Source of the DNA: a virus | Virus record (IMG/VR): IMGVR_UViG_3300020468_000068 | Coordinates: 1 to 24,744 of that record | Direction: 5' to 3' (one strand) | Length of the DNA stretch: 24,744 nt | Shown here: in pieces, positions 5,401 to 22,900 of the stretch | How the letters are laid out: every line of letters starts with the position of its first letter | Numbering within the stretch: the first letter of the stretch is position 1 | Notes under the pieces: model-generated | Database searches by the model: none | Told to the model about the DNA's origin: nothing | Seen by the model: the letters and a program-made list of their open reading frames with translations, nothing else | Made by a program: the position numbers and the translations under genes

Positions 5401-8400
5401 AAAATCATGGTTTTGAAACTTCGGATATAATTGAATATAATTTTCAATCAGGTGGTTCAATAATATCTGGTTTAAGCACATCTAACCAGTATCATGTTGC
5501 AAAGATTGATGAAAATTCATTTAAATTGGCAACAGATTCAGTAAATTTAGAAAGAAAGGCATATGCTAATTTAACATCTTCAGGAGTTGGTTTACAAGAA
5601 TTTTTCTATCCAGAAATTAAAGTAAATATTGAAGTTTCTTATGGATCAACAGTTACAGGAACATTTAATTTAACACCTGTTGTTACAGGACAGATCACAG
5701 ATGCATATGTATATGAAGAAGGATCAAATTATGGTTCAACAATTTTAAATCACCAAATAAAACCTGATGTAGAAATTTTAACAGGTAAGAACGGTGAACT
5801 TAAACCAATAGTTGTAAATGGAAGAATTGATAGTGTATCGGTTGTTAACAAAGGGGATGGATATTTTTCCACACCAGACTTAGAGATAACAGACGCTGGA
5901 ACAGGGTCAGGAGCGATTGTAAGACCTGTAATACAGAATGGTCAGATTATCAATGCAATCGTTATAAACACTGGTATAGGGTACAGTAGTCTTACTACAA
6001 ATATTGATGTTGTACCAAAAGGATCTAACGGATCTTTAGGTGCCAGAGTTAGAAGTTTAAAATTAAATAGAGCAGAAAGATTTGGTAATTTTAATTTAAC
6101 ATCTCGAAAAAATTCTTTTGGATTTGGTGTTCTTGGGTATTCTCAAGATATTATTAGTACTTTAGAAGATAGTTTTTCAATTAAAACAAATGGTGATTTT
6201 GATCAGATAACTACACATTCACCCATAATTGGATGGGCATATGACGGTAATCCAATCTACGGTCCATTTGGATATTCTGATCCTGATAATATAAATTCTG
6301 ATTTAAAAATATTATCTCCTTCATATAAACTTGATGTATCAAAAGTTACTAATAGACCTACTGGATTGAAAGAAGGATTTTTTGTAGACGATTATGTTTA
6401 TGATGGACTAGGAGACTTAGATGCACATAATGGTAGATTTTGTAAAACTCCAGAATTTCCAAATGGAATTTATGCTTATTTTGCTTCTGTTGGAATTTCA
6501 TCAAATACAGGTAAATTAGAAGGAAAATATCCATACTTTATAGGAAAAACTTACAGGTCTCCTTTAATAAATGATAATTTAATTTTAGATCATGATTTTG
6601 ATTTTAATAATTCAAATTTACTAAGAAATACATTACCTTATCTTGTTGATGAGGAGTTTGGTGATAATGATTTTATTATTGAATCAAATGAAACAATTAG
6701 ACAAATAACAAAAATTGAATCTGTAACAAAGGGAAATATAAATGATTTAACTGTTTTAGATGGTGGAGAAGGATATAAAGTTGGTGATTTAACTGTCTTT
6801 GATAATACAGATACGAATGGATCTGGTTTTAGTGCTAAAGTTGATGAAATTGTAGGTATTGGTGTTTCAAGAATTGATACAACTTTACAGAAATTTGAAA
6901 ATGTAGTATTTACTTGGAAAGATAATGATAATGTAGGAGTAACAACTTTACCTTTCATAGAATTAAATGATCAAACTTCAATATCAATCTCTGGATTGAG
7001 TACAAGCATACTTAATCTTACAGGATCATTTAAAATAGGAATTTCTACAGATACTATTGATCTAACAAAACAAATGGCAGTTGGTAATGCTAATGGTGTA
7101 ATTCAAGATATCTACGTATCGGATATTCCAAATACAGTATCAATTGGTGGATCATTAAGAGTTGGATCTGAAATATTAAGAGTATTAAATCTTTATCATA
7201 TACAAAAGGTAATAAAAGTACAAAGAAATGAGGGAGGTAGCATTGGTATTGCTCATACTTCTGGATCAAAAATTGATGTATTGAATAGTCAAATCAATAT
7301 TCCAGTAAAAACTAAGAAATTTGAGTCTAAAACAAATGATTTAGTATACTTTAATGGACCTCAATCAGTAGGAGTTGGCACCACAAGTGGTGGTGCGACC
7401 AGTGTAAAATACTTTGTTGGAGATGTAGTAAAAGATTTATCAATACCTACTAGAACAATACATGTACCACATCATCCATTTAAAACTGGACAAAAAGTTA
7501 CTTTAGTTAAAAATAATGGTGCTAATAGATTTGATGTTGGTAGAACACCTAATGTTACAGAATTTAAACTACCTCATGTTGGCAAAAATACCCTTGATGT
7601 ATATGTTATTAATAAAGGACCAGATAATATAGGTATTTTGACCACTAAAGTTGGTATTGGAAGTACAAGTGAAGGTTTATACTTCTATTCAAAAGGATCA
7701 ACATCTGGAATTTCATCTGGTTTATATTATTTCTCATCCAATCATGAACAAGTAACTGGTGATCTTGAGAAAGTAACAACACTTGTTACAACTAACGTAT
7801 CTGCTGCAGATACAACTACACATAACCTCCAAGAAGGTGATGTTGTTAAAATGAATGTGGTTCCTAATTTATCGGTTGGTATAGGGACAACAGCATCAAT
7901 ATCAGTCAATTATAATTCTGAATATGAGAAATTATTAATCAATCCTTTAACCTTTGCAGCATCAGATGTTGAAGCAAATAGAATAGACATAAGTGATCAT
8001 GGTTTAAAAACTGGTGATAAGATATTCTACAGTGGAGGAGCAACTGGATTATCAACTGGTGATTATTTTGTTAATAAAGTAAGTGATAGATATTTCCAAC
8101 TAGCCGAAACCTTACCAGATTTAAATGTAACTCCAGTTAAAATAGTTTCAATCACAGCTAATACTGGTGGTGCAAATCAATCTATTTCTTTAATTAATCC
8201 TAGAATTGATGTTGTAAAAAATTCTAAGTTAACTTTTGGTTTATCAAGTACAACTTTATCTAATTTTGATTTTAAGGTATTTTATGATAGAGAGTTAACA
8301 AATGAGTTTCTAAGTTCTCAAGATTCTACTATTTTTAACGTAGTTGGAGTTGGAACAATAGGCATTGGAACATCACCAGATAGACCTCTAGGTGCTGAAC

Positions 8401-11400
8401 TTACAGTTCAATATTCAGAAAATACTCCTGATAGATTATACTATGGTTTATCAAAAGGTGGATATATCAGTACATCTGATACTGAAGTTAAAGATTATTC
8501 AGAAATAAGATTTGTTGATAGTACTTATAATGGTGAATATAAAGTTTTTGATGTCACAAATGAAACATTTAAAATATCACCGTTAGTTCCAGAATTTACA
8601 ACATACTTAGACACTGATTGTGAAAAATTAGAATATACTACAAGATCTACAAATGTTCAAGGTACAATTAAAGATTTCAAAATTATTTCATCTGGTTTTA
8701 ATTACAAAAAACTTCCTAAGTTTAAATCAATAACTAGTGCTAATGGTAAGAATGCTAATATTGTAGCAGTATCAACATCTATTGGAAGAATTAATGATGT
8801 AAGAATTGTAGATATCGGGTATGAGTATTCTTCTGATAAGACATTAAGTCCAGAGGCATTTATATCACCTGTTGTAAATATTGATAATCTTGATATTATT
8901 GAGAGTGTTAATATTGTAAGTGGTGGTGCAAATTATATAAATGCTCCAAATTTAATTGTCTTTAACCCTGTTAGAAATGTAGTAGTTGATAGTTCTTCAC
9001 TACAACCCATTGCACCTAATCAAACAATATCTGAAGTAAAGGTTATTGCACCTGTAACTGGATTAGATTCATTAAATCATCAGATTATTGCTATCAATAA
9101 TTCAAATGGAATTGGTATTAATTCAGTTCAAACAAGTTTAACAGGATTAGTCACTTGTTTCTTAGAAACACCTATGAATGGATTTGTCGATCCACAACCA
9201 TTTGCAATTGGCGATGAAATTTTTGTTGAAGGAGTGCAAAGAATTGGAGAAATTGGTGTCGGTGCAACTCAGGGGGGTATTTCAACAAATACAACAGTCG
9301 AAGGAGATGGATTTAATTCTGAAAATTATAACTATCAATTCTTTACAATAAGTGATTATATTGCAGGAGCACAAGCAATACTCAAATTTAATTTAGCAGG
9401 ATTAACAACTAATCCAGGTATTGCAAAAACATTCCAATCAGGATATGCGTCAATTATCAATAAATCAAATTATCCTGTAATTGAACCTATACAAACAAGG
9501 GGTGAATTTGAGTTAAATGAAACATTAATTGTTAATTCAATAAAAACAGATTTATTAGTCGTTGAAATTAGAGATGATTATATAAAAATTGATGGTAAAT
9601 TTGATCTCAAAAAAGGTGATAGAATTTTAGGAAGATCAAGTAATGTTTCTGCTGAAATAACAAGTTTAGTTAAAAATAAAGCAAAATTCAAAACTGATTT
9701 TTCAAACAGACAGGAATATGGATGGATTGATGATATTGGCAAGTTAAATGAAGATTATCAAGTAATTCCAGATAATGATTACTATCAAAATTTATCATAC
9801 ACAGTTAAGAGTACAATAGAATGGGATAAATTTGTAAATCCTGTAAATCGTATTGTTCATCCTGCTGGATTAAAGAATTTTGCAGATACTTCAATTGAAA
9901 GTCAAGTTTCTGTTGGTATTGGAACTACTGCTTTGACAAATGATTTGATTGTTCTTGATGTCTTAAATGTTTTAGATTTAGAAGAACAGCAAAGAGTTGA
10001 TGCTATAAACAATTTTGATCTTGTAAGAGATTATGATACAAGAACAAATAGTTCAAAGTTTATTGAATTATCAAATAGAGTATTAACAGATTTCACAAGA
10101 TGTAAAACAAACAGAGTTCTTGTTCATGATGATATAAGTGGAGAATTCTCAAGTACAGGTTTCCAAGAAAATAATACAATAATTGAAGAACTTTCAGAGG
10201 ATTTTGGAAATTATTTAATTCAAATTGTTGATCCAGATACATCTGATGTACAATTTACAGAAGTTATAACATTAACTACAACTGATAATGCATTCTTACT
10301 TGAAAAAACAACAGATTTTACAACTTTAGAGTTAGGAGAGTTTTCAACAGAAATAACTTCAACTGGAGAAAAAAATCTTATATTTACTCCAACAGAAAAA
10401 TTTACTAAAGATCATGATATTAAAATATTAAAAATAGATTTTAATTCAGATTTGACTGGCATTGGAACACAAGCAGTTGGACAAGTAGATCTAGTTGGTT
10501 CAAATGTAGGAGTAGATAGTACATCTAGTGGAGTAACTACAACAACAATTGCTCAATTCCCTAATACTGATTTTAACGGTTTATATGCGAGTATTTTTGT
10601 TCAAGATAGTATTACTAAAGAAATTAATTATAATGAAGTTATTGTAGATTTTGATGGAACAAGAACCACAACATCTCAAACATACGTTGATACATCTTTA
10701 GGTCTTAGCAATTCATCTGTAGGTGTAATAACTGCTAGATTTGAAAATAATTTAATAAAACTACAGTGCGAAAATGATAGAATTAATCCACTTGAAGTTA
10801 GATCAAATGTTGTTGGATTAGGAACCACTACAACTGGAATAGGTACTTATAGATTTTTAACAATAGGACAACCAACTGGTGCAGAAAGAAGTGCAAGATT
10901 GGAGTCAAACTATGTAACTGGAACTGCAAGTACGATAACTTATGGAACTATAAACAAAACTATTGATAGTTCTGTTAAATCGATTGTAAGGGTATCTTGT
11001 GGTGAAACATCTGCAATACATCAAATCATCTCATTGAGAGATACTGATGATGTTCTAACAGTTCAATACCCATTTGTATCTGCAGGTTCAACTACTGGTA
11101 TTGGTACTTTTGGTGGTGAAATATCTGGAAATGATATTAACTTGAGATTTTATCCAGACTCTGAATTTAATTCATTAATTGAAGTTCAATCATTTAGTCA
11201 AATTTTCTATACTGCTAACGATTTTTCTAATGTACCCCAAGATCTAACATTTGGAAGAGTTACAGAAAAATTATTCTTATCGTCTTATGATGGTTTAAGT
11301 GGATTAAGAGCAAACAAGACTGCATTTGATTTAAAATATGAAGGAACACCAATTTACATAAAAACATTCAATCCAGTTGGAATTAACTCAGTTGCAGATG

Positions 11401-14400
11401 GTGTAGGATTAGTTAAGACTACAGGTCTGTTTAACATTCCAAATCATTTCTTTAATACAAATGAACAATTAACATATACACCTGGATCAACATTTACTGG
11501 TATAGCAGCGACTGCAGTTTCTATTGGTCAAACTACCAATACTGCAGGTGTTGTAACAACCATATTGCCTAGCACCGTATTTGCAAAAGTTATTGATGAA
11601 AATAAATTTGAACTGTATACAAGACCTGAATATGTTTCATCAGGTGCTGCAGTAACATTTACTGGTAGTGGTGGTGGTAATGTACACAAATTGTCAATGA
11701 CAAAACAATTGACAAAATCAATTATTGGATTAGATGGTGTTGTACAACAACCAGTTACATTTACTAAGATTTCTCATACTTTAGGAACTTTTGATGGATT
11801 TACACATAATAGCACTGTTGGTATTGGTCTTACACAATTAGTTCTTAGCGGTATAGGTTCTATAACAACATCTGATATTTTAAAAATTAATGATGAATTT
11901 ATGATTGTTACTGAAGTTGGATTTTCAAGTACACCAACAGGAACAATTAATGATGCAATAGATGTTGCTGCAGGTATTGCAACACTTCCTACAGTAAAAG
12001 TAAGGAGAGGACAATTAGGCATTTCAGCAACTACTCATACTGCTGGAGCAACAGTAAGACTTCATAGAGGATCATTCAATATTATTGATAGTACTTTACA
12101 CTTTACAGATCCTCCAAAAGGAAATACTAGATCAAGAAAAGATGATACAAATTTACCTTTTGTTAAAGCAGATTTTAGTGGTAGAACTTTCCTCAGAAGT
12201 AACTATACTACTAATATGTTATTTGATGACATATCAGATGACTTTACAGGAATTGGTAAAACGTATAGTCTTACAGTTGGTGGAGCAAACACTTCTTCAG
12301 GTATAGGTATTGGTAATGGAGTTTTATTCATAAATGGTGTATTTCAAACACCAAAAACTTTAAACAATACAGGTAATAATTATGAATTTATAGCAGATAC
12401 AACTGCAGGTATTTCAACAGTTGAATTTACTGGTATAACTTCTACAAATGGTGATTTTATAGTATCAGAATCTGATATTAACCAAAACCAAGTTCCAAGA
12501 GGTGGAATAATAATATCTCTAGGATCAACTGCTGGTCTTGGGTACGCTCCATTACAAGGTGCAAAAGTAAAAGCATTTAAAAATAATGCTGGAGGATTAA
12601 CAAGTATTGTTGGTATTGGTACATCATCAGGATTTAATCTTGGTATTCAAACTGCTGCATACGATAATATCACAGGTATTATTACAGTAACTACTAACAC
12701 TGTTCACGGATTTGGACTTGAAAGACCAAACACTGTTAAATTAAAGAATTTAGAGTTTAGTTGTGTGGGTTATAGTGGTGTTACAACGACTATTTTCCAA
12801 GATCATGATAGACCTTTATTCTTAGTTGGAATTGTCTCTGATAGAACATTTAAAGTCCAAGCAGGACCAAGTACAATCTATCATACTTATCAAGGTGGTG
12901 GTGAAGCATATGAGTTCTTTGAAGATCTTACATTTGGTTCAGGATATCGTGGTGGTTCAGTTGCGATTGGTGTTACTGATCAGGCATATGTACATAGATT
13001 TGTGAGTTCTGGTATAGGTTCAGTTAAGAAAACTGCATTCTCAGGATCATCAAGTCAAGGATTTACTGCTACTAACGCAGATTATATCTCTCATACTGGA
13101 AATCTAATACTTACTATTCCAAATCATACTTTTACAACTAGTGATACAGTTGGTATTGATACTGGTGGACTAGTATTTAAATGTTCTAAAGATGATTTCT
13201 TCTCTGATCATCCTTATCCTCGTGAGGTATCAAAAACTAAGGGAACTGCATCTGATGGAGTTGGTGGTAAAGATCCATTTGCTGGAATACAAACTGGTAT
13301 TGGAGCAACTACACTTAATACAATCACATTCTTCGTTGGTCAAGGTGGTGGTGGTGGAACTGGTGCAAATGTTACTGCATCTGTTGGTGTTGGTGGAACT
13401 TTATCATTTAATATTGTTTCTGCAGGAACAAGTTATGTAAATCCAGAAATTATCATTCCAGAACCTAATTACGATAACTTACCTGTTGTTGGTGTTTCAA
13501 GATTAGGAGTTGGTTCAACTACAGATACTGGATCTAACTTATTAATTGATGTAGAAGTAGGAGCATCGAGAACAACAGTTGGTATTGGTTCAACTACATT
13601 TGAAATATCTAAGTTCCAAATAGCAAGACCTGGTCATTCATTTAAAATTGGTGACAAATTCAAACCTGTTGGATTAATTACTGCTGCACATTTATCACAA
13701 CCAATAAACGAATTTGAACTTGAAGTTTTGCAAATATTTAATGATAAGTTTTCTTCTTGGCAATTTGGTGAAATTGATTTTATTGATAATATTAAAAACT
13801 TACAAGATGGTTCAAGACTTAGATTCCCATTATTCTTTAATGGACAATTATTAAGTTTTGAGAAAGACAATACAAACTCACAATCTGCATTAATTGATTT
13901 GGATGCAGTATTATTAATATTTGTCAATGGAGTTCTTCAAAAACCAGGTGAATCTTATTCATTCCGAGGTGGTACAACATTTATATTTGAAGAAGCACCT
14001 ACGGGAGAGACATCACCAGGTGCAAATGATCACGATAAAGTTGATATATTCTTCTACAAGGGTCAAGATGGAGTTGATGTAGATTTAGTTGATGTTCAGG
14101 AGACAATAAAGATTGGTGATGAATTAAAGATTACAAAGAGTCCAATAGAGGTAACTACTTCTCAAACTGGTGAAAGAGTTGTTAAAGAAATATTAGGTGC
14201 AGATTTAGTTGAAACTAATATCTACACTGGATTAGGGGTTGATGAAGTTAATGAAAAACCAGTAAGATGGACAAAACAGAAAGTAGATTTAGTTGTAGGT
14301 GGACAAGTAATTGATAAATCAAGACCTTCTCTTGAACCACAAGTTTATCCTACTGCAAAAATTATTGGAGATCTTTCAGTAATTTCTGGTACAAATAGTG

Positions 14401-15353
14401 CAAATAGTATATTTGTTGATGAAGTTGAATCGTTCATTTATGAAGACGATGTTTATGGTTTATCAGCATTTGAATTTGATGCTCTAATAACATCAGGAAA
14501 GATAAATGTTGGTGCTTCAGCAACTGCTATTGTTTCTGCTGCTGGAACCATCTCAATTGATATTACAAATGCAGGATCTGGATACTTATCAGCACCAAGT
14601 ATTACAATTAGACCACCAATCGGTTCTGGAACTACAACTGGTATTGGATCTACAGCATTTGCAACAACCACTGTAACAAATGGTTCAGTTACTGATACAT
14701 CATTTACTGCTGTTGGTCTTGGTTATACACATTCAAATCCTCCAGAAGTTATCATAGAGTTACCTCCATTCCAAACTGAAAAAATTACATCATTTGATCA
14801 GGTAGAAGGTTTTACAGGAATTATAACAGGTATAACAACTACAACTACTAATAGTGGAACACAAGCAGCACTTAAATTCTTCTTTAGAGCAACAAAAACT
14901 GTTCAACCTAGACTTCAAGTAGGATATCCAGTCTTTATAAGAGATACATCAGTTGGTCATGGAGTTACATCCGTTGATGGACACAATTCTTCTATAGTTA
15001 GTATTGGCACAACATTCTTAGATAACATTTATAAAGTAGCTTCTATTTCAAGTGGTGGAGGTGAAGATGCTGAAATCGTTTGTAATGTTGAGAACGGTTC
15101 TAATATTGTTGGTATTGCAACCACAGGTTTCCACTATCCATCTGGAATTACTACATCTACATCATTGGGTCGATTAAGTTGGGGTAGATTATACGATGGA
15201 GTACGATCAAGTAATCCTATTTCGATAGGTGTGACTGGATTAACAGTCAATACTGGTTTAACTACATTCCCAACTATTCAAAGAAAAAATTATGATCCAA
15301 CATCACATAGGGGTCTCAGATCCACTGGTGCGATCAGAGTATTTGGACTTTGA
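2481..15353 (+). CDS. Giant baseplate wedge protein in gp7 position, YHYH-type domain
   Basis: A 4290-residue structural protein between gp6 and gp8, where T4 carries gp7 (1032 residues), the wedge initiator that binds gp10 and gp8. The N-terminus (LPEFLVNDFPNATEFFKQYY) and a helical segment at about 164-254 (FYKKLKKTFLPGLEG, then SKGIQESVRILFKVLYG and IKPSG) are of a kind seen at the start of such proteins in marine T4-like phages and probably anchor it in the wedge. A YHYH-like domain lies at about 1246-1362. The rest is a mosaic of beta-rich modules: 12 GxGY repeats, eight His-Gly/Thr-Gly-Asp type modules, three EIxxYT/RG modules and three NGVxQxP modules. A last conserved region (about 3750-4000) includes GLGVDEVNEKPVRWTKQKVD. 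There is no signal peptide, membrane segment or recognised enzyme site. It may form wedge plus side-fibre structure. Assignment to gp7 rests mainly on synteny. Confidence 0.82.
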   Translation: MSQIDKRIKVNTIIENQLPEFLVNDFPNATEFFKQYYISQEFQGGPSDLITNFDQYLRSDNLVPEVVVGVSSISSEITATDTTITVASTKGFPSEYGLLKIDDEIISYTGITSTSFTGCIRGFSGISGYNVGISSSLLEINRENLVFEDTTASSHSSGSTITNLSVLFLQEFYKKLKKTFLPGLEGNDFDTDLDVGNFFKFARSFYQSKGIQESVRILFKVLYGVESTILDLEGNLIKPSGAEFIRREVIIADLITSTADPQNLVGQTIFKSTDTSTNASVSEVEILKRDQKTYYKISLFVGFSDRDLIEGVFTVPGKTKSLSDVAINGNVISVDSTVGFGATGTIVSGQNNIDYTSKTINQFFGCTGVGVKINTADDIRSNETIFGYENGDLSKRVDLRITGVLSELVPISDISLVNEGENIFVKNIGEKIKNDNSSYKEIFANSWKYNTSSRFQIDIFGTTYTFRAPIDKSNLKVGDTFNILRRNQQVIEGTGTVSSIDTNLNQITVDNVVGFTTISNQLYDIRRILETATSTGVEIEQGNDVLITDVLNVYSDGETDGYVASNSLPNYNITVDTIKETTSGLSLDGKNPLTNEYSFIQFSPPSNENIKLIQGDAIVYSPQTEVLSGLESGRTYYVDPVTPPAGANISKIALYQSRSQIGTASTVQIGIGTTSVEDHTFILQSHADRKLQSDKILRRIPLSQNLSVSSKHETPINDIGILRDGVQIRSPISDDIIYYGNLESVEVLNGGKGYDVINPPSISVESTSGTTALVQPVITGIVNKVLVDPQNFDIESVKSISVTGGNGSGCVLQPVVGIRNRFVNFDSRDIFFNGGIDKDDETITFKTEHNLENGQLVYYSANNNSPIGIGAAYDSNNIITGTLSDGDPYFVRIVNPTTVRIFNTKQDALAGIAGINTVGLSTDTGASGIHRFRTENRTTLISVKVLESGSGYTNRKLKVNPSGISTAYDVINFKNHGFETSDIIEYNFQSGGSIISGLSTSNQYHVAKIDENSFKLATDSVNLERKAYANLTSSGVGLQEFFYPEIKVNIEVSYGSTVTGTFNLTPVVTGQITDAYVYEEGSNYGSTILNHQIKPDVEILTGKNGELKPIVVNGRIDSVSVVNKGDGYFSTPDLEITDAGTGSGAIVRPVIQNGQIINAIVINTGIGYSSLTTNIDVVPKGSNGSLGARVRSLKLNRAERFGNFNLTSRKNSFGFGVLGYSQDIISTLEDSFSIKTNGDFDQITTHSPIIGWAYDGNPIYGPFGYSDPDNINSDLKILSPSYKLDVSKVTNRPTGLKEGFFVDDYVYDGLGDLDAHNGRFCKTPEFPNGIYAYFASVGISSNTGKLEGKYPYFIGKTYRSPLINDNLILDHDFDFNNSNLLRNTLPYLVDEEFGDNDFIIESNETIRQITKIESVTKGNINDLTVLDGGEGYKVGDLTVFDNTDTNGSGFSAKVDEIVGIGVSRIDTTLQKFENVVFTWKDNDNVGVTTLPFIELNDQTSISISGLSTSILNLTGSFKIGISTDTIDLTKQMAVGNANGVIQDIYVSDIPNTVSIGGSLRVGSEILRVLNLYHIQKVIKVQRNEGGSIGIAHTSGSKIDVLNSQINIPVKTKKFESKTNDLVYFNGPQSVGVGTTSGGATSVKYFVGDVVKDLSIPTRTIHVPHHPFKTGQKVTLVKNNGANRFDVGRTPNVTEFKLPHVGKNTLDVYVINKGPDNIGILTTKVGIGSTSEGLYFYSKGSTSGISSGLYYFSSNHEQVTGDLEKVTTLVTTNVSAADTTTHNLQEGDVVKMNVVPNLSVGIGTTASISVNYNSEYEKLLINPLTFAASDVEANRIDISDHGLKTGDKIFYSGGATGLSTGDYFVNKVSDRYFQLAETLPDLNVTPVKIVSITANTGGANQSISLINPRIDVVKNSKLTFGLSSTTLSNFDFKVFYDRELTNEFLSSQDSTIFNVVGVGTIGIGTSPDRPLGAELTVQYSENTPDRLYYGLSKGGYISTSDTEVKDYSEIRFVDSTYNGEYKVFDVTNETFKISPLVPEFTTYLDTDCEKLEYTTRSTNVQGTIKDFKIISSGFNYKKLPKFKSITSANGKNANIVAVSTSIGRINDVRIVDIGYEYSSDKTLSPEAFISPVVNIDNLDIIESVNIVSGGANYINAPNLIVFNPVRNVVVDSSSLQPIAPNQTISEVKVIAPVTGLDSLNHQIIAINNSNGIGINSVQTSLTGLVTCFLETPMNGFVDPQPFAIGDEIFVEGVQRIGEIGVGATQGGISTNTTVEGDGFNSENYNYQFFTISDYIAGAQAILKFNLAGLTTNPGIAKTFQSGYASIINKSNYPVIEPIQTRGEFELNETLIVNSIKTDLLVVEIRDDYIKIDGKFDLKKGDRILGRSSNVSAEITSLVKNKAKFKTDFSNRQEYGWIDDIGKLNEDYQVIPDNDYYQNLSYTVKSTIEWDKFVNPVNRIVHPAGLKNFADTSIESQVSVGIGTTALTNDLIVLDVLNVLDLEEQQRVDAINNFDLVRDYDTRTNSSKFIELSNRVLTDFTRCKTNRVLVHDDISGEFSSTGFQENNTIIEELSEDFGNYLIQIVDPDTSDVQFTEVITLTTTDNAFLLEKTTDFTTLELGEFSTEITSTGEKNLIFTPTEKFTKDHDIKILKIDFNSDLTGIGTQAVGQVDLVGSNVGVDSTSSGVTTTTIAQFPNTDFNGLYASIFVQDSITKEINYNEVIVDFDGTRTTTSQTYVDTSLGLSNSSVGVITARFENNLIKLQCENDRINPLEVRSNVVGLGTTTTGIGTYRFLTIGQPTGAERSARLESNYVTGTASTITYGTINKTIDSSVKSIVRVSCGETSAIHQIISLRDTDDVLTVQYPFVSAGSTTGIGTFGGEISGNDINLRFYPDSEFNSLIEVQSFSQIFYTANDFSNVPQDLTFGRVTEKLFLSSYDGLSGLRANKTAFDLKYEGTPIYIKTFNPVGINSVADGVGLVKTTGLFNIPNHFFNTNEQLTYTPGSTFTGIAATAVSIGQTTNTAGVVTTILPSTVFAKVIDENKFELYTRPEYVSSGAAVTFTGSGGGNVHKLSMTKQLTKSIIGLDGVVQQPVTFTKISHTLGTFDGFTHNSTVGIGLTQLVLSGIGSITTSDILKINDEFMIVTEVGFSSTPTGTINDAIDVAAGIATLPTVKVRRGQLGISATTHTAGATVRLHRGSFNIIDSTLHFTDPPKGNTRSRKDDTNLPFVKADFSGRTFLRSNYTTNMLFDDISDDFTGIGKTYSLTVGGANTSSGIGIGNGVLFINGVFQTPKTLNNTGNNYEFIADTTAGISTVEFTGITSTNGDFIVSESDINQNQVPRGGIIISLGSTAGLGYAPLQGAKVKAFKNNAGGLTSIVGIGTSSGFNLGIQTAAYDNITGIITVTTNTVHGFGLERPNTVKLKNLEFSCVGYSGVTTTIFQDHDRPLFLVGIVSDRTFKVQAGPSTIYHTYQGGGEAYEFFEDLTFGSGYRGGSVAIGVTDQAYVHRFVSSGIGSVKKTAFSGSSSQGFTATNADYISHTGNLILTIPNHTFTTSDTVGIDTGGLVFKCSKDDFFSDHPYPREVSKTKGTASDGVGGKDPFAGIQTGIGATTLNTITFFVGQGGGGGTGANVTASVGVGGTLSFNIVSAGTSYVNPEIIIPEPNYDNLPVVGVSRLGVGSTTDTGSNLLIDVEVGASRTTVGIGSTTFEISKFQIARPGHSFKIGDKFKPVGLITAAHLSQPINEFELEVLQIFNDKFSSWQFGEIDFIDNIKNLQDGSRLRFPLFFNGQLLSFEKDNTNSQSALIDLDAVLLIFVNGVLQKPGESYSFRGGTTFIFEEAPTGETSPGANDHDKVDIFFYKGQDGVDVDLVDVQETIKIGDELKITKSPIEVTTSQTGERVVKEILGADLVETNIYTGLGVDEVNEKPVRWTKQKVDLVVGGQVIDKSRPSLEPQVYPTAKIIGDLSVISGTNSANSIFVDEVESFIYEDDVYGLSAFEFDALITSGKINVGASATAIVSAAGTISIDITNAGSGYLSAPSITIRPPIGSGTTTGIGSTAFATTTVTNGSVTDTSFTAVGLGYTHSNPPEVIIELPPFQTEKITSFDQVEGFTGIITGITTTTTNSGTQAALKFFFRATKTVQPRLQVGYPVFIRDTSVGHGVTSVDGHNSSIVSIGTTFLDNIYKVASISSGGGEDAEIVCNVENGSNIVGIATTGFHYPSGITTSTSLGRLSWGRLYDGVRSSNPISIGVTGLTVNTGLTTFPTIQRKNYDPTSHRGLRSTGAIRVFGL
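2712..2880 (+). repeat. EIxxYT-RG module, copy 1 (gp7-position protein)
   Basis: Residues about 78-133 read as a small beta-rich module: GFPSEYGLLKIDDEIISYTG, then FTGCIRGFSG. The pattern (short strand, G-x-L-x-I-D-D-E-x-I-x-Y, then a Cys/Arg-Gly turn) recurs at about 7143-7280 and 11817-12072 in this protein and at 23214-23433 in the DUF4815 protein. It resembles small tail-protein domains in which IxxExxxY is followed by an RG turn. Function unknown; probably structural. Confidence 0.55.
5703..6020 (+). repeat. GxGY repeat cluster 1 (gp7-position protein, three copies)
   Basis: Three successive copies centred on Tyr1084 (EEGSNYG), Tyr1128 (NKGDGYFSTP) and Tyr1168 (NTGIGYSS), spaced 44 and 40 residues. 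Each reads hydrophobic-x-hydrophobic-x-x-x-G-x-G/N-Y, then a short proline or strand segment, a glycine-rich turn (GTGSGAIVRPVI) and a strand with G-x-I. Single copies also occur at Tyr754 (NGGKGYDVINPP), Tyr952 (ESGSGYTN), Tyr1432 (DGGEGYKVGD) and Tyr3652 (SAGTSYVNP). The period and composition suggest a beta-solenoid or tandem beta-sandwich arm, which is an inference. Confidence 0.7.
6216..6564 (+). other. YHYH-like domain within the giant gp7-position protein
   Basis: Residues about 1246-1362 match the layout of the YHYH domain (PF14240): a GWAYDGNPIYGPFGY segment at the start, then LDAHNGRF and KTPEFPNGIYAYF, and finally YPYF. In the family name-giving motif the residues are Tyr-His-Tyr-His; here they are Tyr1331-Ala-Tyr-Phe1334, so both motif histidines are absent. 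His1316 in DAHNGRF is the nearest remaining one. The domain occurs in large virion proteins of marine T4-like phages and in bacterial extracellular proteins, and its role is not established. Recognition is by motif layout only. Confidence 0.72.
7143..7280 (+). repeat. EIxxYT-RG module, copy 2 (degenerate)
   Basis: Residues about 1555-1600: GSLRVGSEILRVL, then VQRNEGGSIGIAHTSGSKID. The order is that of the other copies (G-x-L-x-x-x-x-E-x-x-x-x, an Arg turn, A-H-x-x-G), but with Asn in place of the usual Gly after Arg. Confidence 0.5.
8670..8970 (+). repeat. GxGY repeat cluster 2 (gp7-position protein, three copies)
   Basis: Copies centred on Tyr2075 (SSGFNYKKLP), Tyr2116 (DIGYEYSSD) and Tyr2152 (SGGANYINAP), spaced 41 and 36 residues. 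They have the same build as the cluster around residues 1084-1168. The middle copy is the least regular, with the Gly-x-Gly replaced by Gly-Tyr-Glu. Confidence 0.66.
11430..13210 (+). repeat. His/TGDxVxY module array, copies 6-8 (gp7-position protein)
   Basis: Further copies open at His2989 (PNHFFNTNEQLTYT), His3409 (VHGFGLERPNTVKLK) and His3549 (PNHTFTTSDTVGI). The first continues to VFAKVIDENKFELYTR and the second to LFLVGIVSDRTFKVQ, matching the strand pair of copies 1, 2 and 5. The third has no clear second half. These three are about 1150 residues downstream of the first group, separated by unrelated-looking sequence. Confidence 0.58.
11722..14040 (+). repeat. NGVxQxP modules, three copies (gp7-position protein)
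   Basis: Three copies of a short motif with a hydrophobic run followed by [ND]-G-V-x-Q-x-P: IGLDGVVQQPVTF (about 11722-11760), LFINGVFQTPKTL (about 12323-12360) and LIFVNGVLQKPGESY (about 13914-13958). The last two continue to a Y-x-F segment and then to STVEFTG or TTFIFEEAPTG. NGVLQxPGxxY is a familiar motif of phage tail-fibre beta domains. The third copy sits in a longer conserved C-terminal region. Confidence 0.6.
11817..12072 (+). repeat. EIxxYT-RG module, copy 3
   Basis: Residues about 3113-3197: DILKINDEFMIVTEV, then VKVRRGQLGISATTHTAGATV. The ATTHxxGxxV ending is almost the same as ATTHAEGSLI in the DUF4815 protein (around 23390-23415), which links the two giant genes. Confidence 0.6.
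14553..14770 (+). repeat. GxGY repeat cluster 3 (gp7-position protein, two copies)
   Basis: Two near-consensus copies at Tyr4035 (TNAGSGYLSAPSITI) and Tyr4082 (AVGLGYTHSNPPEVII), 47 residues apart and close to the C-terminus. A run rich in GTTTGIGSTA lies between them. The first copy is the closest to the pattern seen widely in phage and bacterial tail proteins (GGSGYxxxPxVxI). Confidence 0.72.
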
Positions 15354-15365
15354 TTAAATAACCAC

Positions 15366-15373
15366 TATAAATA
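15366..15373 (+). promoter_or_regulatory. T4-type late promoter upstream of gp8
   Basis: TATAAATA lies in the 42-base gap between the giant gene and gp8, 22 bases before the gp8 ATG. It would give gp8 and the downstream DUF4815 protein their own late transcript, independent of a 15-kb read-through from the promoter at 102. No hairpin terminator is visible in the gap. Confidence 0.82.
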
Positions 15374-15395
15374 AAAAGAAAAGCAAAATTTTAAG

Positions 15396-16988
15396 ATGTC
15401 GGCAATAGTTACTGACCAATTTAGAATTCTGAACGCAAATAACTTTGTTGAATCAGTAGAAAATACAAATAATTCATACTATGTTTTTGTAGGACTAGCA
15501 AATCCTCAAGGAGCAGATACTGTAGTAGGTTATGGAAGATCAGGAAATTGGAACTCAAATACTCCTGCACCAACAGATAGTTTTTCATATAGAGCACACT
15601 CTGGAGATACTATGATGTTTGGTAAAAAGGTATCATCAGCAAATATACGAAGAATTATAAGAAGAGTTGATTGGATATCTGGAAATAGATATGAAATATA
15701 CAGAGATGATTATAGTGCTACAAATCAAAGTCCTCTAACTAAAGCAAATAGATTGTATGATGCGAACTACTACGTACTTAATTCCGACTTTAAAGTTTAC
15801 GTTTGTATTGATAATGGATCAAGCGGAACTAACCTACTTGGGAACGTCTCACAAGATGAACCAACATTCACAGATTTGGAACCATCAAAAGCAGGAAACA
15901 GCGGTGATGGATATGTTTGGAAGTATCTTTTCACTGTTTCGCCTAGTGATATTATTAAATTTGACTCAACTGAGTTCATCACTGTCCCTAATGATTGGTC
16001 TTCCAGCACTGATGCTCAAATAAGAGCAGTACGTGAAAATGGAGATTCTACGGTAAATGAAAATCAAATCAAACACATCTATATTGAAGATGGTGGTAAT
16101 GATTATGCAGACGGGTTAGGTCAAGAAGTTGATATTATTGGTGATGGTTCAGGTGGTAAGGCGAGAGTTGATGTGGTAAACGGTACAATCACAGATGTAA
16201 GTGTGAGTGCAGGTGGAAAAAATTACAGTTATGCTTTAGTTGATTTAGGAACACTCAATAGTAATGTTGGTGCAGATAAAAAAGCAAAACTTATTCCTAT
16301 AATACCACCAAAGTTGGGACACGGAAATGATGTATATACTGAATTAGGGACTGATAGAGTGATAGTATATGCTAGATTTGATGATTCTACAAAAGATTTT
16401 CCAATTGACACTAAATTTGCACAAGTAGGTATTGTAAAAAACCCAACGAAAGTAGGTACAGCATTAACCTATACAGATAATACTTATTCATCCTTACAAG
16501 CAGTTAAATTTAGTACTGTAGCTGGATCTTCACCTAAAATAGGTGAAGAAATTAGACAAACTCTGTCTGTTTCTCCACTTAATGGAAAAGTTGCAACAGG
16601 TTTTGTAGCATCATATGATCTTGAAACTAAAGTTTTAAAATATTTCAGAGATAGATCTTTAAATTTTAGCAGAACTTTTTACGATCATACTGACTATTCA
16701 GGAATTTCTACATCGGGTAGAGTATATGAATTTGAAAATGCAAGCACTTCAAATAATATAGTTGGAACAGCAACTTCATTCTCTGGAGCAGTTGATATTA
16801 CTTTTTCAGATGCCACAGTAAACCCAAATGGAACCAAGGTAATTAACTTGGGGACAACGTTTGCTCAAGGGTTATCTGATAGTGAGATAAATAAAGGGTC
16901 TGGTGAAATAATCTATCTAGATAATAGACCAATAATCAATCGAAATCCTCGTCAAAAAGAAGACATAAAAATCATACTAGAATTTTAA
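15396..16988 (+). CDS. 8: Baseplate wedge protein gp8, enlarged
   Basis: A 530-residue homologue of T4 gp8 (334 residues; PF09215), which forms dimers that clamp gp7 in the wedge arm. The N-terminal half carries the expected features: MSAIVTDQFRILNANNF, SYYVFVGLANPQGADT, ANIRRIIRRVDWISG with YEIYRDDY, LYDANYYVLN and DGYVWKYLFTVSPSDIIKF (to about residue 190). An insertion with two GxGY repeats follows (Tyr237 and Tyr277), as described separately. The C-terminus resumes gp8-like sequence, including LDNRPIINRNPRQKEDIKIILEF. The start is fixed by the late promoter 22 bases upstream. The stop lies three bases before the next gene. Most of the extra length over T4 is in the middle and C-terminal half. 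Confidence 0.9.
   Translation: MSAIVTDQFRILNANNFVESVENTNNSYYVFVGLANPQGADTVVGYGRSGNWNSNTPAPTDSFSYRAHSGDTMMFGKKVSSANIRRIIRRVDWISGNRYEIYRDDYSATNQSPLTKANRLYDANYYVLNSDFKVYVCIDNGSSGTNLLGNVSQDEPTFTDLEPSKAGNSGDGYVWKYLFTVSPSDIIKFDSTEFITVPNDWSSSTDAQIRAVRENGDSTVNENQIKHIYIEDGGNDYADGLGQEVDIIGDGSGGKARVDVVNGTITDVSVSAGGKNYSYALVDLGTLNSNVGADKKAKLIPIIPPKLGHGNDVYTELGTDRVIVYARFDDSTKDFPIDTKFAQVGIVKNPTKVGTALTYTDNTYSSLQAVKFSTVAGSSPKIGEEIRQTLSVSPLNGKVATGFVASYDLETKVLKYFRDRSLNFSRTFYDHTDYSGISTSGRVYEFENASTSNNIVGTATSFSGAVDITFSDATVNPNGTKVINLGTTFAQGLSDSEINKGSGEIIYLDNRPIINRNPRQKEDIKIILEF
16077..16247 (+). repeat. GxGY repeat pair inside gp8
   Basis: Two copies at Tyr237 (EDGGNDYADG) and Tyr277 (SAGGKNYSYALVDLG), 40 residues apart, with a GDGSGGKARVDVV turn and an NGTITDVSV strand between them. 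This is the same build and period as the repeats in the neighbouring giant proteins (Tyr1128 to Tyr1168 there is also 40 residues). T4 gp8 has no such repeat as far as I know. Confidence 0.7.
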
Positions 16989-16991
16989 CCG

Positions 16992-19900
16992 ATGCCACAG
17001 AAGACTAACTTAAATATATCACCTTATTATGATGATTTTAATAAGGATAAGAACTTTTATAAGGTTCTATTTAAACCTGGATATCCCGTACAGGCAAGGG
17101 AATTAACTGGTTTACAGTCTTTATTGCAAAATCAGGTTGAGTCATTTGGAAAACATATATTCAAAGAAGGATCAATGGTCATACCTGGTGGTATTGAATA
17201 TGATCCAACTTATTTTTCTGCAAAGGTTAACGGAACACACTTAGGTATTGATATTTCCGTTTACTTAAGTAATATTATTGCAAATAATGATGGAAAAGGC
17301 ACAAGAGTAAGAGGACAAAGTTCTGGTATAGTTGCAACAATTAAAAACTTTATTTTACCTCCAGAAGAAGGTGTCGATGATATAACAATTTTTATAAAAT
17401 ATAATCAATCTGGAACTGATGGTGAAAGTGCTGCATTTCCTGACGGTGAAATATTAATACTTGAGGAAAATGTAACTTATGGTAATACAACATTAAACAC
17501 TGAGGAAACAGTTTTAACTTTAGTGTCTGAGAATGCAACTGCTACAGGATCTGCATTTGGTGTTAACAAAGGTGTATATTTCTTACGTGGTGCATTCGTA
17601 GACGTACCAACCTCTCAAATTATTTTAGATCCCTACTCTAATGAACCATCTTATAGAGTTGGTTTTGAAATTTTAGAAGAGATTATAAATGCAAACGATG
17701 ACTCTTCATTGTATGATAATGCAAAAGGATTTACAAACTTTGCAGCACCTGGTGCTGATAGATTTAAAGTTACAGTAAAACTTGCTAAAAAGGATTTACA
17801 AGATTTTCAAGATACTAATTTTGTTGAATTATTCAGAACAAATCAGGGTCAAACTAAAAAATTACAAGATTCTACAGTATATTCTGAGTTAAAAAAATAT
17901 TTTGCAAAGAGAACATTTGATGAGTCAGGTAATTATTCAGTTGAACCTTTCCGTGTAACAACTCAAGACTCATTAAATGATGAAACTGGATCTGGTGGGT
18001 TATATGCTGAAAATCAAGTAACAGATGAAGGAAATACTCCTATCGATGATTTAATGTGTGTTAAATTGTCACCAGGTAAAGCGTATGTAAGAGGTTTTGA
18101 TGTATCATTACCAGGAACCACTGTAATTGATGTAGAAAAACCAAGAACTACTAAAACAGTTAAAAATGCATCTATCCCATTCAGTATGGGTAGTTTGGTA
18201 AAAGTAAATAATGTTAATGGTGCACCTACAATCAGTCTTGGTGGAAATAATACTAATGTTGTTCAGTTAAGAAATCAAAGAGTTGGTACTAACAAGACAT
18301 TGGCACAAGGACTACAAGTTGGAGAAGCAAGAGTGTACTCTTTTGGACTTTCTGATGCTTCATATGCAGGTGCAACAACACCTTGGGATTTAAATCTATA
18401 CGACGTTCAAACATTTACTATTTTAAAATGTAGTGCTTTCGTAGATTCTGATGTATTAAAAGGTACAAAGATAAGAGGTTTAGCAAGTGGAGCGATAGGT
18501 TATGCTGCTAAAAATGCTGGTGCAACAGGAATAGACGAAATAGTATTATCTCAAACAACAGGTACATTCATAAAGGGTGAGCAAATTAAAATAAATGAGA
18601 GAGATATAGTTGGAAAAATATCTATTAAAGAAATATTAGCATTCACAGTCGATGATATCAAATCAATTTATCAAAGTAATTTTAGTGCAGGTATATCAAC
18701 CTTTAATGCTGACACTATATTATATGATCGAGTTTTACCAAATTTTTCAATATCAGATGAATTAAACATAGTTGGAAGTGCAGCAAGTGTTGCAAATAGA
18801 AGTTTTGCTGGAGTTGGTATTAATACAAATACGATTATTGCATATAATAAAGGTAATTATCAAGACCCTACATTTAATGAAATTTCTAATATTTCTAATG
18901 ATGGAAAAATATTAACTCTATCAGCAACAACAAATGTTGTAGGTGTAAGCACAGGAACTATATCTGCAACTTCATCATCATTTAGAATTAAAGTGCCTAG
19001 AATATTAAATTTAGAAAATTCTGGCATATATTCAAAATTACCAAGAAAAATTATTTCTAGTGTTGACACTGCAAACTCTAATTTAATTATTAGTAGACAA
19101 ATTAGTGGTCAAACAGTTTCAGCAAGTGGATCTTTAACAATTAACTCCCAACTAGGGTTGGATGCAGGTTCAGGTATTTCAAGTGCTTTCTTTGAACCAT
19201 TTGATGCCGAAAAATATTCTATTCATTATCAAAATGGTTTAATTGAAACTCTAACTGCAGATCAAGTATCTGTTGATAATGCAAACAATGATGTTACATT
19301 TAACGGTTTATCTCAGTCTTCAGCAACTCAAGTGACAGTGAATGTCTCTATGAAAAAAGTTGGTGCTTCCAGTAAATCAAAAGATTATACAAGAAGTCAG
19401 CAACTTGAAGTAACACGAACAGTTGGTATATCGACTTTAACAAGTTTACTAGTACCAAGTAATGCATATGGATTGAGAGTTGAAGATAGAGAGATTTCAC
19501 TTAATGTACCAGATGTATCAAAAGTCGTTGCGGTTTATGAGTCAAAAACAACAAGTGCTCCAACATTAGATGCTTTGACATTTGTATCTGGTTTGTCACT
19601 AAACACAAATGCTATTCTTGGAGAGAAAATAGTTGGTAAAGATAGTAGAGCAGTAGGACAAATTGTAGCACGACCAAGTGCAACTGAAATTAGATTTGTT
19701 TATCTAAATGGAAATAAATTTGTAATTGGGGAGGTTGTTGAATTTAAGGAATCGGGTGGTGAGCACATATTACAAGGAACAATAGCAGGTAATTTTGTTG
19801 ATCGTACAAACAATTTTGTTTTAGATAAAGGTCATAAAGCACAATATTGTGATTATTCTAAAATTATAAGAAAAGCAAAAGTAGGTGTTCCATCTAAAAA

Positions 19901-22900
19901 ATTATTAGTTATTTTTGATCAATATCAAGTTGCAAGCGGAAACAGTGGTGATTTCTATTCAGTAAATTCATATACAAAAGAAAGATATTCAAAGGATATT
20001 CCTTTGATAGACGGAAATAGGGCAACAGATGTAATTGATTTAAGACCTAGAGTAAAAACTTTTACTGTAAGTAATGAGAATGTTTCTCCTTTCTCATTTG
20101 GAGCAAGAGAATTTGAATCAACAAATCCATATGTAGTTACTCCAAATGAAAGTTCAATATTAGGATATAGTTACTATCTACCTAGAATTGATAAACTTGT
20201 GATCAATCAATATCAAGAAGTAAAATTAATAAAAGGTGAACCTGCAGAAGAACCAGTACCTCCAACTGAAGAAGGAAATTCAATGGAGGTTGCTGAGATA
20301 TCTCTACCACCTTATCTTTTCAACACTGTTAAATCTCCAAATATTAAAATGTTTGAAAATAAGAGATTTACAATGAGAGATATTGGTGCTCTTGAAAAAA
20401 GAATTGAAAATTTAGAATTAACAACAACTTTGAGTGCATTAGAAGTAAATGCACAATCACTTCAAGTAAGAGATGCTGACGGTCTTAATCGATTTAAAAC
20501 TGGATTTGTTGTCGATAATTTCTCAGATAGAAACTTTATTGACTTTACACCAGAGACAGGATCAAGATGTGATGTTGATGTTGTAAATAAGGAATTAATC
20601 AGTGCAACTGATTTCTGGTCAATTAATCCAGAGTTAGCTGTAAATCCATCTATCGATATTGATTCTGCTGATCTTAACTCTAATCTACAACTTTTAGATA
20701 CAAACTGTAAGAAAACTGGTGATTTAATAACATTAGATTATACTGAGATTGATTGGTTAACACAACCACAAGCTACTGAAGCAGAAAATGTAAACCCATT
20801 CAATGTTATCGTCTTTATGGGTGGTATTATTTTAGATCCACCATCTGATAATTGGGTTAGAACACTCTATTCAAATAATGAAAGAATTGAATCTACAGGT
20901 GCTACATGGGCAGAGGTTGCTAATGATGAGGCAATTGGACCCATAATTGAAACGGATACAGGTAAAGATGTTGATACAAATAGATCTATTCGAGATCCAG
21001 ACTACAATTCTTACAGAAGAAGAATAAGAATTGTACAAAATGTATTTTCACAAAAACAACAATTTAGAAGAACATTTTCAAATGTTTTACAAGGTCCTAG
21101 TCATGAATTTGATTATGTTGAAAGTATTAAATTAACAAGTGAAGCAGATCCTTATATGCGTTCACGAAATGTTTTCTTCAGTGCAAATGGATTGAAACCT
21201 AATACAAAACATCATCATTATCTTGACAATGGAGTTCCTGATATAGTTCCTAAGTTAGTTGAAATTACAATGACTTCTGGAACATTTACTGTGTTTGAAG
21301 ATATAAGCATCGAAATAGATGGAACAGAAATTGGATTTGCTAGGATACAACAACCAAATCATAAATTTGGAGATACATCAAGACCTGATGTTGGAGCAGG
21401 ATTAGGATCTCCATCAGTTCTAGTAGAGAAGTATACAGTCGATCCTTTTGATACTTCAAGACCAGCACCATCAAATACTTATTCAGCAACATCTAAGTTA
21501 CTTAACATTGATACAATATCACTTGCAAATCAAGAAAAATATTTTGGTTATATTAATAAGGGTGCAAAAATTATAGGTAAGAGTAGTGGTGCAGTTGCAA
21601 CTGTAAGTAGTATAGATTTATTCAGTGATAATTGGGGAGACTTACTTGGAACATTCTTTTTTAGAGATGCAACTAAAACTCCAAAACCACCAACTTTATT
21701 TGCTACTGGTACAAAAACATTTAGAATAACATCTGCCCCAGAGGGCACTATACCCGTTCCTGGTAGCACTGATCATTCTAGTGATGCATCTGGCACATTT
21801 ACAGGAACAGGCACTATACAAACTCAAATACAGAGTAATGTGCAAGTAAGAAACCCACCCGCACCATCTGGAACACGTCCAAGTGAAATAATCACAAGAA
21901 CAAATCTAATATGGAAAGAGGGTTTAGGTGCAAAATTCAAAGCTCCTCATAGAGATCCATTAGCACAATCATTTACAGTTGATGAAACAGGTGCATTCTT
22001 AACATCATTTGATGTATTCTTTAAATCTAAAGATGAAAAAGCAAAATTATTTGTTGAGTTAAGATATGTTGAATTAGGAACTCCAACGAATTATCTTGTT
22101 CAGGATTATGCTCAAATTGCAGTAAATCCAAATAATATTAATGTATCTGATGATGCTTCAGTTGCAACTACTTTAAATTTCCCATCACCAATTTATCTTG
22201 AACCTGAAAAAGAATATGCTTTAGTATTCTTAGCACCATCTTCTGATAAGTATGAGATGTGGGTTGCCACAATGGGTCAAAAAACTGTTGGTACAACAAA
22301 TCTACCTGATGTTGAAAACGTAGTTGTATCTAAACAATATATTGGTGGTAGTTTATTTAAATCTCAAAATGGTACAATTTGGACTGCTAGTCAATATCAG
22401 GATTTAGCATTTAAATTACGTAAAGCATCATTCGTCAATTCAGGAACTGCTACATTCTATAATACTCCAATTGAAGCAGGAAATCTTAATACACAAATAT
22501 TACCTGATAATCCAATACGAGTATTACCAAGAAAATTAACTGTAAAATGTTCTGGTGCTTCATCTGGTGATTTCCCTCTTGGAAGAAAGGTAAGTACTGA
22601 TAATGGATCTAATTCTGCAGCAGGAAATGAAGATTTATTCGTAACAGGTATTGTTGAAGGTAGAGGTGCTGCAATCAATACTAATACTTCATTTGATATA
22701 GTTTCTAATGGTGCTGGATATGCAGCTACAGGTACCAATAATGTTCCACTTGTTTCACTAACTGGTAGTGGTACAGGTGCACAGTGTTCTATTTCTATAG
22801 ATGCTACAACTGGTGCAATTAATTCAATATCTAACTTAACCACTGGATCAGGATATCAAATAGGTGAGGTTTTAACTATTGATAATACAAATGTACAAAT

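Follow-up and report, generated by a model that had tools for sequence, protein, structure and literature searches.

We found that a repeat of about 40 residues, marked by a GxGY turn, occurs in three adjacent baseplate proteins encoded on IMG/VR virus record IMGVR_UViG_3300020468_000068, and that its copies belong to one old homologous family spread over virion proteins. The window, by which we mean the whole stretch of 24,744 nucleotides that was analyzed, is the baseplate cluster of a T4-like cyanophage near Prochlorococcus phage P-SSM2 (Kyanoviridae), in which the gene order gp25, gp6, gp7, gp8, DUF4815 protein is identical. We suggest, with a probability of roughly 0.58, that the repeat builds a portable surface-docking barrel related to domain I of the T4 tail sheath protein gp18, a solvent-exposed knob inserted in the sheath subunit. 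The three carrier genes are as follows.

2481..15353, plus strand: gp7-position giant baseplate wedge protein, 4290 residues, 12 listed copies; phrog_2885 over residues 3-4269 of 4290; same position as P-SSM2 gp7
15396..16988, plus strand: gp8 baseplate wedge protein, 530 residues, 2 copies; PF09215 E 4.9e-15; T4 gp8 (1n7z) Z 18.4
16992..24437, plus strand: DUF4815 baseplate protein, 2481 residues, 2 copies; PF16075 E 1.4e-55, above the family cut-off; phi812 ORF65 (9euf) E 2e-41

All 16 tyrosines listed in an earlier note on this DNA lie at the residues given there, and adjacent copies are indeed 36-47 residues apart (gp7 44, 40, 41, 36, and 47; gp8 40; DUF4815 45). That note had placed the start of the repeat region at 5703, but Tyr754 and Tyr952 of gp7 fall earlier, at window positions 4740 and 5334. 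Its GxGY motif is strict in 9 of the 16 copies, and the other 7 read GxNY, GxDY, GxEY, or GxSY. The units are listed here in order, all on the plus strand.

4692..4814, plus strand: gp7 Y754 (GKGY)
5286..5408, plus strand: gp7 Y952 (GSGY), weak as a single unit; has a P-SSM2 positional counterpart
5682..5804, plus strand: gp7 Y1084 (GSNY), first of a tandem three
5814..5936, plus strand: gp7 Y1128 (GDGY)
5934..6056, plus strand: gp7 Y1168 (GIGY)
6726..6848, plus strand: gp7 Y1432 (GEGY-xVGD subtype), nearest DUF4815 Y1955 (hhalign E 4e-10; BLAST E 0.002)
8655..8777, plus strand: gp7 Y2075 (GFNY)
8778..8900, plus strand: gp7 Y2116 (GYEY), weak as a single unit
8886..9008, plus strand: gp7 Y2152 (GANY)
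13386..13508, plus strand: gp7 Y3652 (GTSY), standing singly, weak
14535..14657, plus strand: gp7 Y4035 (GSGY)
14676..14798, plus strand: gp7 Y4082 (GLGY)
16056..16178, plus strand: gp8 Y237 (GNDY), first half of the predicted barrel; G234 and Y237 invariant in 89 gp8 proteins
16176..16298, plus strand: gp8 Y277 (GKNY), second half of the predicted barrel; G274 and Y277 invariant
22671..22793, plus strand: DUF4815 Y1910 (GAGY)
22806..22928, plus strand: DUF4815 Y1955 (GSGY-xxGE; VGD in orthologues); the orthologous ACG-2014f unit is matched by PF22639

The bare motif is not diagnostic: Y173 of gp8 (PGDGYVW) belongs to a conserved T4 gp8 motif, and Y3355 and Y3489 of gp7 fit GxGY yet were not recovered as units. 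The two window gp8 copies read GNDY and GKNY, whereas the gp8 family consensus is GxGY; G249, D250, and G251 are invariant along with the residues listed above in the 89 gp8 proteins, which reach down to about 31% identity. Tandem Repeats Finder found no repeat in the DNA of the window.

The copies in the three proteins are related to one another, as the earlier note had proposed. We built a profile hidden Markov model (HMM) from the copies of one protein and scored it on the others against shuffled sequences. The gp7-only HMM reached 13.5 bits on gp8 (maximum of 500 shuffles, 6.6) and, on DUF4815, 4.5 bits at its top site, 1899-1915 around Tyr1910 (maximum of 200 shuffles, 3.5). When the shuffling was limited to the module segment, the gp8 result was clear (17.6 versus 9.0) and the DUF4815 result borderline when taken alone (10.0 versus 9.4, 1000 shuffles). 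The reverse HMM, from gp8 and DUF4815, placed its best five gp7 matches on listed copies. Profile comparison with hhalign, using orthologue alignments from viral contigs, joined gp8 to DUF4815 (E 9e-9), gp8 to gp7 1066-1192 (E 5e-8 and 5e-9) and 4002-4098 (E 1e-7), and DUF4815 to gp7 1414-1456 (E 4e-10), in alignments of 37-73 columns that include both turns. The copies thus match each other better than the random Gly-rich segments that the earlier note had named as the alternative.

Each unit comprises a strand, the GxGY turn, a strand, a GxGSGA turn, and a strand. A gp8 model made from 89 sequences (predicted local distance difference test, pLDDT, 85 overall and 84-95 in the module) has the T4 gp8 backbone (1n7z, Z 18.4) and places strands at 227-232, 240-249, 252-261, 264-275, 280-282, and 298-302 across the two units, which are thereby predicted to form one small six-stranded barrel at residues 226-303. 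The window gp8 belongs to the T4 gp8 family by both PF09215 and fold; T4 gp8 itself (334 residues, PF09215, 1N7Z) supplies the same backbone but is without the GxGY module, sequence homology ending near residue 198-229. Phage phi812 ORF65 (9EUF) is a homologue of the DUF4815 protein whose best-scoring stretch, 1597-1827, stops before the module at 1892. When PDB sequences were searched for the unit profile, only P-loop-like chance matches came up, and a match of the DUF4815 segment to the metapneumovirus fusion protein (E 0.005) was judged to be chance.

The best solved matches to gp8 226-305 were T4 gp18 domain I (3foa 99-186, Z 5.3, root-mean-square deviation 2.9 A over 72 residues; 3fo8 99-188, Z 5.2), followed by domain I of the phage KP1 sheath (98-187, Z 4.5). 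Domain I (PF22639, 3FOA/3FO8) has six strands, the number predicted for the gp8 module, and shares with that module a GxNY turn directly after strand 1 (gp8 Y237 and T2 gp18 Y110, with the structural match starting at 226 and 99), a further Gly/Ser turn ahead of the final strand, and its place as a surface insertion in a tail protein. It differs in occurring only once, in the sheath, and in having a helix that separates its halves; the window units lie in the wedge proteins gp7 and gp8 and the DUF4815 protein, lack the helix, and fall below the Pfam cut-off.

Sequence comparison pointed to the same site. The T2 gp18 stretch reads NIEYTISTPGSNYAVGDKITV...GKITEVDADGKIKKINI...SSSSGLAAVI, and a unit HMM built without any sheath sequence ranked gp18 99-118 first among T2 open reading frames (9.8 bits; next 2.2); of 72 sheath orthologues examined, about 60 were hit at the equivalent of T2 98-102, with up to 13.4 bits. 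In hhalign comparisons with gp18 domain I, the DUF4815 module reached 72% probability (E 3.4e-5) and the gp7-1432 module 63%. Over six whole phage records, PF22639 Gp18_dom_I matched the T2 sheath (1.6e-41) and exactly three other proteins, each time overlapping a GxGY unit: Ps15 gp7 (E 2.7e-6, 24.7 bits), the ACG-2014f DUF4815 orthologue (0.002), and P-SSM2 gp5 (0.007). The sheaths of the Stenotrophomonas phages Ps15 (tail sheath gene 197-2170 of its stretch) and YB07, both Menderavirus, also carry the repeat as a strong pair (45.0 and about 36 bits), near the end of sheath domain II rather than at the domain I site, with the T4 domain I stretch missing. We note that T2 (AP018813) gp18, at 24526-26505, is annotated "chaperone for long tail fiber formation," and Pfam shows it to be the sheath protein.

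Several results weigh against this reading. A Z of 5.3 is below 8, so the structural match could reflect a common barrel arrangement, and a Z near 5 is weak by itself. The window proteins had no match to PF22639 at E 10, and the family cut-off of 27 bits was reached by no phage unit (best 24.7). A two-unit profile compared with full gp18 gave 5.5% probability in hhalign, though at the correct site, and the helix between the gp18 units is absent from the gp8 219-302 model. The AlphaFold model of gp7 1041-1473 was weak (pLDDT 56, module region 30-65) and matched nothing in the PDB at Z 2 or above; the single shared fold expected in the earlier note is probable, and the prediction is confident for gp8 only. 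Fiber docking does not suit the modules of the hub/lysozyme gp5 or those of bacterial proteins that look secreted, so binding may be general. Because of the low full-length hhalign probability, the missing PF22639 match, and the absent helix, we regard the window repeat as probably a divergent relative of gp18 domain I, not a member of PF22639.

A possible function comes from T4 genetics. Domain I of T4 gp18 contacts the baseplate and the retracted long tail fibers, and the gp18 substitutions G106S, S175F, and A178V inhibit fiber retraction (PMC3004832). These residues all fit T2 only when numbered without the initial Met (with it they would be G107, S176, and A179), which makes G106 the first glycine of GSNY and puts S175 and A178 within SSSSGLAA. 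By alignment, SSSSGLAA appears to correspond to the GxGSGA turn, the Gly/Ser turn before the last strand, and on this reading of the sequence the fiber-retraction mutations would fall in both hallmark turns of the repeat. We suggest that the repeat may be a portable beta module of T4-like virions, with two units per barrel and longer tandem runs in giant wedge proteins. By analogy with domain I, such modules would serve as exposed docking or adhesion pads on the cyanophage baseplate, neck, hub, and fibers, with the two glycine turns placed at the contact edge; the partner may be the phage's own fibers, neighboring wedge proteins, or the host surface. The common surface decoration or contact proposed in the earlier note is in keeping with this reading.

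The family extends well past three adjacent proteins, to which the earlier note had confined it. In P-SSM2, the unit HMM detected gp7, gp8, the neck protein gp14 (four copies), the hub/lysozyme gp5, and the tail fiber PSSM2_293; the DUF4815 protein and fiber PSSM2_021 matched at the edge, and all other matches were at noise level. Matches per phage numbered 38 in S-CAM22, 13 in ACG-2014f, 5 in Ps15, 3 in Melnitz-2, and 0 in T2. S-CAM22 carries units in a 6273-residue wedge protein with long tandem runs, in gp7, gp8, gp14, and the DUF4815 protein, and in other structural proteins. The repeats were confined to virion proteins in P-SSM2, S-CAM22, ACG-2014f, Melnitz-2, and Ps15, and the PHROGs matched by member units were mostly virion families (wedge, Hc2 neck, hub/lysozyme, fiber). 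With the S-CAM22 array as query, 336 phage records matched, all of them cyanophage or marine. The repeat is not exclusive to phages, as planctomycete, Pinibacter soli (Bacteroidota), and Patescibacteria proteins contain 2-14 units; these look secreted or surface-exposed, and in one of the planctomycete proteins the units are accompanied by PATR repeats of the autotransporter type. NCBIfam and Pfam assigned no family to the phage units, and a tblastn search with an invented consensus gave no match, the query probably having been masked as low complexity. Literature searches, with only partial coverage, found no paper describing the repeat.

The copies are old. All but one of the 16 window units match their positional counterpart in P-SSM2 best, and BLAST at E 0.01 found no pair among the gp7 copies; on both grounds the copies predate this phage group, and recent hopping from gene to gene was rejected on the first. 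Movement of the module between neighboring genes, which the earlier note gave as one of two possible origins beside repeated insertion, is not supported, given this positional conservation and carriers that are not adjacent (gp14, gp5, and fibers). The closest sign of exchange between genes is the pair gp7 Y1432 and DUF4815 Y1955 (BLAST E 0.002), a shared subtype present in relatives too. Escherichia T4-like phages align to the window gp8 over about residues 3-229 only and T2 gp8 has no module, so different lineages acquired the module, or lost it, at an early date.

We considered three other explanations. The modules could be host-surface adhesins that bind cyanobacterial surface glycans instead of the phage's own fibers, in the manner of scattered phage immunoglobulin (Ig)-like domains. 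Their presence in exposed baseplate and fiber proteins and the secreted or surface-exposed look of the bacterial array proteins, one of them with PATR repeats, are consistent with this; a sheath survey suggests that added beta domains help adhesion (PMC9230969), and gp8, taken as a whole gene, was among those that acquired parallel mutations when S-PM2d co-evolved with Synechococcus (PMC9910659). The Ig-like domains of phages and the PATR repeats of bacteria are likewise promiscuous surface beta modules but have another motif, and Pfam listed no Ig-type family at E 1 for the window proteins or 41 units, an absence that is weak evidence. The conserved positions are Gly and Tyr, with no conserved polar pocket visible, and neck and hub proteins, which sit well away from where the host is first contacted, carry the module too, so we consider an adhesin unlikely.

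A structural spacer, in which the repeats would be beta scaffolding that makes giant wedge proteins longer or more rigid without specific binding, would suit the runs of six or seven consecutive units in the 6273-residue S-CAM22 protein, which are conserved in about 300 cyanophages, and the conservation mainly of turn glycines. The single pairs in gp8, DUF4815, and the Ps15 sheath add little length, however, and gp18 domain I is a known binding site that takes no part in contacts between sheath subunits (PMC3004832), which leaves a spacer improbable. Repeated origin of GxGY beta turns in three proteins unrelated through them, though suggested by copies that are short, Gly-rich, and divergent, by the chance occurrence of the motif at gp8 Y173, and by the borderline single-sequence test for DUF4815, is very hard to reconcile with profile-profile E values between 1e-7 and 4e-10 in alignments of 37-73 columns that cover both turns, local shuffles that were beaten, and no comparable matches in T2.

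The remaining genes of the window, and the gp7-position proteins in other phage stretches, which differ enormously in length, are given below; S-CAM22 encodes its 6273-residue wedge protein separately, beside its gp7.

128-529: gp25
531-2477: gp6
P-SSM2 25005-40592: gp7-position protein, 5195 residues (window protein, 4290)
S-CAM22 15838-19965: gp7-position protein, 1375 residues
T2 9050-12148: gp7-position protein, 1032 residues
Melnitz-2 14496-17186: gp7-position protein, 896 residues

Within the window gp7, a YHYH domain (PF14240, E 2.9e-25) occupies residues 1242-1337 (window 6204-6491). It lies between repeat copies Y1168 and Y1432 and ranks with the most highly conserved parts of its segment. 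A second short module, TTxxVAxTxxF...GEEIVSYT, is common to gp7 74-109 (window 2700-2807) and DUF4815 2074-2115 (window 23211-23336; BLAST E 0.038) and is possibly another repeat shared by neighbors. In one other contig, gp7 and the DUF4815 protein are split over several frames, probably by sequencing errors.

Returning to the docking barrel, a broader version of this proposal is that marine T4-like cyanophages place the domain type that T4 has once, on its sheath, on the neck, wedge, hub, and fibers as a standard docking part, which might hold fibers or host ligands at many tail sites, so that one ancient module would underlie fiber docking in both T4 and cyanophages; we offer this only tentatively and think it doubtful. 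The docking reading would supply a repeat found in very large, mostly uncharacterized structural proteins of abundant marine viruses with a name, a fold, and a function open to testing, and would tie it to a tail surface domain that is one of only a few for which mutants are known. If it is true, T4 gp18 domain I would be one member of a virion-wide docking module rather than a peculiarity of the sheath.

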